DNA of 42,718 nucleotides from Candidatus Pacearchaeota archaeon. Its GTDB lineage: Archaea; Nanobdellota; Nanobdellia; Pacearchaeales; GW2011-AR1. Location: contig JAIFVW010000003.1 in assembly GCA_019662115.1 (NCBI GenBank), positions 1 to 42,718 of the forward strand. The letters are read 5' to 3'. Of this stretch, positions 25,234 to 42,718 are shown one piece after another. Each line of letters begins with the position of its first letter. Positions within the stretch are counted from its first letter, which is position 1. Position numbers and translations under genes: made by a program. The notes under the pieces were generated by a model. That model was not told the DNA's origin and searched no databases. It was given only the letters and a program-made list of their open reading frames with translations.

Positions 25234-25305
25234 GCTCGCATAGTCTAGTGGTCAGGACACATCCCTGTCGCGGATGAGACCCGGGTTCAATTCCCGGTGC
25301 GGGCG
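25234..25305 (+). tRNA. tRNA-Asp(GUC)
   Basis: Acceptor GCTCGCA/TGCGGGC, D-arm GTCT/GGAC, anticodon arm CATCC-CTGTCGC-GGATG, T-loop TTCAATT, discriminator G. Confidence 0.95.
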
Positions 25306-25361
25306 CTCTTATTTTATTTATGATCAAAACTTATTTAAATCGTTGTCAACACCACAAAATT

Positions 25362-38457: not shown

Positions 38458-38580
38458 AGATAAATGCTAGAAAAACTATATTTAAACCTATTGAATAGAC
38501 AAGCTTAAAAAGCCATTTTAACAATCATTTATACTTTAGCTCGGTACAGAGGGCAATTCTTCTTGCAGAGTTTAAAGCGT

Positions 38581-38724
38581 CCCTCCGTAGCTCAGTGGTT
38601 AGAGCGTCTGGCTGTAGATACCTAACGCAGACATTCCTACGGGATTAGAATGAAGCGTGATAAGCCGATTCTTCAGGTTCAAGCAGAACCCGGAAGATCC
38701 CCAGTTCGATTCTGGGCGGGGGGA
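38581..38724 (+). tRNA. tRNA-Tyr(GUA), intron 38618-38688 (71 nt) at 37/38
   Basis: Acceptor CCCTCCG/CGGGGGG with archaeal Tyr-type C1-G72, D-arm GCTC/GAGC, anticodon stem TCTGG/CCGGA, T-arm CCCAG-TTCGATT-CTGGG, A73. BHB: bulges AGA/AAC around CUGU/GCAG. Confidence 0.9.
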
Positions 38725-38758
38725 TTAAACTTATAATTATCGGAGTACTGTAGATATC

Positions 38759-42309: not shown

Positions 42310-42576
42310 ATGGTTGATAGAAAGGCAGAAATAGAATATGTCAATGGGAACAAAGAAACCATTGATTTGTCTTGTGTCGTGCAGTATGCATTTGCTCCAA
42401 ATTTCCACTCCTATGGAACTGGATGTGATATGTATTACATTGCTCAATTACTCCAAGAGAGAAAATCAATCATTATAGCTAAAAATCACGGAAACACTTC
42501 AGAAGAGGGTATAGAACAGGTGATAAATACAAATAATGTATTGAATATTCGACCTGTTGGAACGAAAGGTTTATAA
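42310..42576 (+). CDS. Hypothetical 88-aa protein
   Basis: ATG ORF with TATA-like tatatataat upstream (42280-42290). Confidence 0.6.
   Translation: MVDRKAEIEYVNGNKETIDLSCVVQYAFAPNFHSYGTGCDMYYIAQLLQERKSIIIAKNHGNTSEEGIEQVINTNNVLNIRPVGTKGL
42570..42576 (+). promoter_or_regulatory. TATA box for the candidate ncRNA
   Basis: tttataa with purine-rich cgaaagg upstream, about 27 nt before A42600. Confidence 0.5.
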
Positions 42577-42599
42577 CGCATCTATTCAAGCTCTTGTTA

Positions 42600-42665
42600 A
42601 CTGAGCGGTGAGGGTACGATCCACGTTCACTAACCCAACCTTCGCTGTCTCGGTTTTATTTTTTA
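42600..42665 (+). ncRNA. Candidate structured ncRNA (long hairpin plus U-rich 3' end)
   Basis: ACUGAG-CGGUGAGGG pairs with CCUUCGCUG-U-CUCGGU (15 bp, one bulged U, several G.U pairs), followed by ttttatttttta. Confidence 0.45.
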
Positions 42666-42718
42666 TACAAATCTAGAACCTCTTTACTTGAAAGAGCTGT
42701 CTTGTAAATCCTTAATTC
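42656..42718 (-). CDS. Partial CDS, C-terminus of a LamG/ConA-like lectin domain protein
   Basis: Frame ...ELRIYKTALSSKEVLDLYKK* resembles the usual LamG ending (VRIYNRALSxxEIxxLY). Confidence 0.6.
   Translation of the reverse strand, partial: ELRIYKTALSSKEVLDLYKK

Follow-up and report, generated by a model that had tools for sequence, protein, structure and literature searches.

Trans-encoded archaeal small RNAs from intergenic regions, such as sRNA154 and sRNA162 of Methanosarcina mazei, are short RNAs built around a stable stem. sRNA154 is predicted to form two stem-loops that contact target mRNAs through their loops (PMC5867862). A locus of comparable layout lies at one end of a 42,718-nt stretch of Candidatus Pacearchaeota DNA that we analyzed as a whole (the window), contig C28 of a genome whose 49 contigs total 673 kb. 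A sequence-only reading of the window had proposed that the locus encodes an undescribed small structured RNA, transcribed independently from the + strand. Sequence comparisons across genomes support this proposal and suggest that the RNA very probably represents a real, undescribed family. In the literature searched, two papers cover both Pacearchaeota and noncoding RNA, neither with a title on small RNAs, and a search for DPANN hairpin RNAs returned nothing relevant.

A hairpin between two convergent genes

The hairpin (42599-42655, + strand) is flanked by an 88-aa ORF on the same strand, which follows the thermosome gene, and by a convergent gene on the - strand (Table 1). Its core stem pairs exactly as first read, with six pairs (ACUGAG/CUCGGU), a single bulged U, and nine pairs (CGGUGAGGG/CCUUCGCUG). 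Two further pairs, A42599-U42655 and U42615-A42638, bring the total to 17 and reduce the loop from the 24 nt originally read to 22 nt. RNAfold gives the + strand -22.7 kcal/mol, compared to -13.1 +/- 2.5 for shuffled sequences (z -3.8, 0/200), and folds the - strand no better than shuffles (z +0.3). The stem contains four G.U pairs, and the strand preference that the sequence-only reading had drawn from at least four such pairs is borne out by these energies. The hairpin is also richer in GC (54%) than the DNA upstream (35%) or downstream (27%), and the T-rich tract that follows it does overlap the end of the convergent gene (YKK and a stop codon at 42656-42658), both as noted earlier. When loci were ranked on TATA box plus hairpin, this one came top in its own genome and in that of a same-genus sister (21, versus 14 and 16 for the runners-up).

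Table 1. Features of the hairpin locus, in window positions; pair counts are across three copies
Feature	Position	Strand	Evidence or comment
88-aa ORF, no known family; context, outside the RNA	42310..42576	+	No Pfam match; kept at the same place upstream in the sister genome
BRE/TATA element GAAAGGTTTATAACGC; TATA box TTTATAA at 42570-42576	42564..42579	+	tRNA-promoter matrix score 13.7
5' stem arm AACUGAGCGGUGAGGGU	42599..42615	+	Fold z -3.8; 17 pairs, 6 with both partners changed; 98% of cells paired
22-nt loop ACGAUCCACGUUCACUAACCCA, conserved element	42616..42637	+	Same in the sister genome; 20/22 in the third copy despite a different stem
3' stem arm ACCUUCGCUGUCUCGGUU, including bulged U42648	42638..42655	+	Fold and pair counts as for the 5' arm
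T-rich tract, probable transcription terminator	42654..42667	+	Directly 3' of the hairpin in 3/3 copies; termination putative
Convergent CDS, 3' end; partial, leaves the window; context	42656..42718	-	ELRIYKTALSSKEVLDLYKK (to the stop) resembles the C-terminus of a Laminin_G_3 protein encoded at the corresponding position of the sister genome

Rfam 15 yielded no gathering-level match in the window except three tRNAs, and no match to the window hairpin on either strand at E up to 10; a cutoff of E 5 likewise gave none on the hairpins of the two further copies described below. The earlier view that the segment is not a tRNA, 5S rRNA, SRP RNA or C/D-box RNA agrees with these scans. Among the tRNA genes of the window, tRNA-Ile(UAU) (2812-2934, - strand, 123 nt) and tRNA-Tyr(GUA) (38580-38725, + strand, 146 nt) are long enough for an intron, and tRNA-Asp(GUC) (25234-25306) lacks one.

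Two further copies and their covariation

The same-genus sister genome (G001, JAIFVX010000001.1) carries a syntenic copy with 45 identical nucleotides and three stem substitutions, all of which preserve pairing (fold z -5.0), next to a flanking ORF with many changes. The two genomes share a mean protein identity of 74% over 635 ortholog pairs. Because they have 137 identical runs of at least 36 nt in common, several of them tRNA genes, the exact run at the hairpin is not extraordinary. A separate 69-nt stretch (locus L061, contig C9 of the window's genome, 16507-16575), identical in both and outside called tRNA genes, is possibly another conserved element. In the sister genome, ARAGORN also called a tRNA-Cys spanning about 1.1 kb (contig C1, 370507-371617), which either carries a very large insertion or is a false call; group I introns have been reported in archaea (PMC6125680).

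The decisive evidence for the family is a third copy. A covariance model built from two copies and run on 186 genomes matched a genome of another genus in the same family (G090, CAIQQL010000142.1) at E 1.8e-8, in an intergenic locus unrelated to the first two. The sequence-only reading had pointed to loci downstream of the thermosome gene as the place to look for homologues; this proved right within the genus and not for the copy in G090. There, a stem of largely different sequence (AAAGCAUUGGAGAG/CUUUCCAAUGCUUU) closes the loop ACGAUCCAAGUUCACAAACCCA (z -4.9). The - strand of this copy also folds above chance (z -3.1), so the choice of strand there rests on its promoter, T tract and G.U pairs. 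Downstream of it (locus L026, about 1580-1880, - strand), the convergent gene seems broken by a frame change, possibly as a pseudogene or through sequencing error.

Across the three sequences, six of 17 pairs have changed on both sides, bearing out the expectation of conservation and covariation in relatives. The covariation score was 0.69, compared to 0.42 for shuffles (0/500) and at most 0.28 for slid controls; as there are only three copies, two of them syntenic, it reflects mainly one comparison. Compensatory changes have kept the helix in these three sequences, which points to a structured noncoding RNA. The loop behaves differently from the stem: it measures 22 nt in every copy and follows the consensus ACGAUCCAMGUUCACWAACCCA, so that the loop, and not the drifting stem, is the conserved element.

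The family is rare and patchy among the genomes searched. The RNA is single-copy in the two same-genus genomes, which were read nearly whole and in which we found no paralogue of comparable quality with a different loop. Allowing up to three mismatches, the loop pattern recovered only the three real copies from 200 genomes of the order. A covariance model of all three sequences had no match in the 37 genomes nearest in thermosome sequence. In an evenly drawn sample of 378 genomes from the class it gave no match beyond the genus, and G090, presumably not drawn, does not appear among the matches. G110, the other member of G090's genus, lacks a copy. By thermosome identity, the two genera that carry the RNA rank among the nearer relatives of one another. 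Collections of genomes and viral contigs contained 20 stretches with the loop pattern, two of which, both archaeal, have the hairpin; the other 18 do not and are consistent with chance. Phage and plasmid collections gave no match. Three weak model and pattern matches were discarded after folding and ORF checks: one in G181, antisense within a thymidine-phosphorylase-like gene; one in G241, apparently coding and without a hairpin; and one in G481, antisense within a coding gene. Loss, transfer or gaps in incomplete assemblies could each have produced the patchiness.

Promoter, loop partner and competing readings

To score promoters we used a matrix derived from the upstream regions of tRNA genes in the window's genome and its sister. 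It picked out GAAAGGTTTATAACGC in the window, CAAAGATTTATAATCC at the sister copy and CAAAGGTTTAAATGCC at the copy in G090, with 6, 31 and 9 of 284,500 positions, respectively, scoring as high. The motif AAAG-N-TTTAWA lies upstream of all three copies, and the TATA box starts 28-30 nt before each hairpin (29-30 nt in the window), compared to 29-31 nt upstream in most tRNA genes here, in line with the normal archaeal spacing claimed by the sequence-only reading. The overlap of the window's TATA box with the TAA of the 88-aa ORF is as first read. As the T tract likewise overlaps a gene, each of these two elements has another reason for being present in the window. In G090, the promoter and the hairpin both lie in the intergenic DNA that follows an NAD-kinase gene, with the promoter clear of any stop codon; as that promoter was outside the search model and is intergenic, it provides independent support. 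Very likely, then, the small RNA gene has its own BRE/TATA promoter.

We consider it likely that the locus is a small RNA gene with its own promoter, whose product of about 60-70 nt uses the stem as a scaffold and the loop to act in trans. Its structure, covariation, loop conservation, promoter match and spacing, and single-copy occurrence are all directly observed. Transcription would start from the BRE/TATA promoter at or just before 42599, cross the hairpin, and end in the T-rich tract. The stem may be selected only for staying paired; the single-stranded loop that it presents, exactly 22 nt long, would hold the sequence that is under selection and does the work of the molecule. Since the loop is more conserved than the stem, we infer recognition in trans of another molecule, most likely an RNA through base pairing, as in archaeal intergenic sRNAs, with a protein nearly as likely.

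Where a null was run, searches for an RNA partner gave no candidate above chance. The loop showed no such complementarity to tRNAs; a 9-bp match to the anticodon arm of tRNA-Val(GAC) was rejected, as the C-to-A loop change in G090 breaks it unless the tRNA has changed too. Nor was there any to the SSU of G090, where a bipartite match to 16S spotted by eye (GUGAAC-CUCACCA-GGAUCG) is about at chance level by a rough estimate. Against the LSU of three relatives and a partial fourth, the best run was 8 pairs, with a null mean of 7.9. In the 5' regions of mRNAs from 597 orthologous genes, to which the energy searches were confined, the best energy fell within the range of 30 shuffled loops, and conserved 8-mers were not above chance across orthologous genes, SRP RNA or RNase P RNA (the latter two recognized by eye among the identical runs of the two sister genomes). 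The absence of a complementary target above chance weakens an antisense role. The shuffled loops kept composition only, and the own-genus assemblies lack SSU and most LSU sequence, so antisense action may still hold, with a protein ligand only slightly less probable. The 16S match in G090 itself (locus L052, 1501-2926 and beyond) is unusual in its 3' part, with neither TGCACACACCGCC nor a GGATCACCT end found in the locus; this could reflect an intron, a rearrangement or an assembly fault.

A trans-acting RNA whose loop is bound by a protein, as an RNP scaffold or a decoy with no RNA pairing, differs from our preferred reading only in the partner and is compatible with it. We regard it as a tentative but serious possibility. 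It would account for the failure to find an RNA target above chance in any set tested, and the near-complete conservation of an unpaired loop also suits a protein footprint. Against it, no protein gene is linked to the RNA at both loci, and 22 contiguous conserved nucleotides are long for the usual protein-binding loop.

The position of the hairpin raises the question of whether it is instead part of an upstream mRNA, as a 3'-UTR stability element or a 3'-processed RNA without an independent gene. The copies have a co-directional gene upstream and a convergent gene on the other side, and in the window the hairpin begins 23 nt past the stop codon of the + strand ORF. Yet a strong promoter stands at a tRNA-like distance from all three copies; the upstream genes differ (the 88-aa ORF versus NAD kinase); in G090, about 90 nt including the promoter separate gene from hairpin; and the hairpin is absent from the other NAD-kinase loci read in the family. 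We therefore find this reading improbable. Still less probable is a transcription terminator for the flanking genes. A hairpin with a T-rich tract behind it, placed between convergent genes, has the right look, but a terminator needs neither a loop conserved at 20 of 22 positions across genera nor an upstream promoter. Archaeal transcripts are terminated at U-tracts, with no requirement for a hairpin. Moreover, because the window fold is restricted to the + strand, such a terminator would not serve both genes. A hairpin acting at the DNA level, such as an integron attC site or an IS200/IS605-type transposon end, would fit the imperfect stem with its extrahelical base and the patchy distribution but is scarcely credible, given that G.U pairs and U.G to U-A changes favor RNA from one strand, the 3' end retains no attC core site (GTTRRRY), the element is single-copy with no transposase adjoining in the stretches read, and attC sites conserve their ends and not their loop.

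Relation to known archaeal RNAs

The small RNA gene we favor is a single-copy element with covariation, a promoter and an exact loop length, present at unrelated sites in two genera whose genomes measure about 0.7-1.2 Mb. It suggests that these reduced cells keep regulatory or structural RNAs not captured by current family libraries, and its loop consensus provides a specific probe for metatranscriptomes. A more speculative and rather doubtful extension is that it represents a new class of RNA restricted to a few Pacearchaeota; its drifting stem would hold open an invariant 22-nt loop as guide, template or ligand for an undescribed dedicated partner, possibly tied to a reduced and probably symbiotic way of life. 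No CRISPR-like array was found in the parts of the two same-genus genomes that were read.

Archaeal C/D box sRNAs resemble the RNA in being short, at about 60 nt. Unlike them, it has a long continuous stem and no C and D box set: RUGAUGA is absent from all copies, and the CUGA of the window copy falls within the stem and is missing in G090. Archaeal H/ACA guide RNAs are similar in being hairpins with unpaired segments that could guide. The hairpin here differs in having no upper stem and no bipartite pocket, with the single stem in G090 closing a fully unpaired loop, and in lacking an ACA immediately 3' of the stem in all copies. Rfam matches to either class are also lacking.

Closest in layout are archaeal intergenic sRNAs. 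The Pacearchaeota RNA has one hairpin with a 22-nt loop, whereas sRNA154 has two stem-loops and reported targets in nitrogen metabolism; it also comes from a different lineage, with no detected target and no Rfam-level similarity to sRNA154. Intergenic sRNAs are thus the nearest described kind, and the likeness is one of layout and not of shared family.
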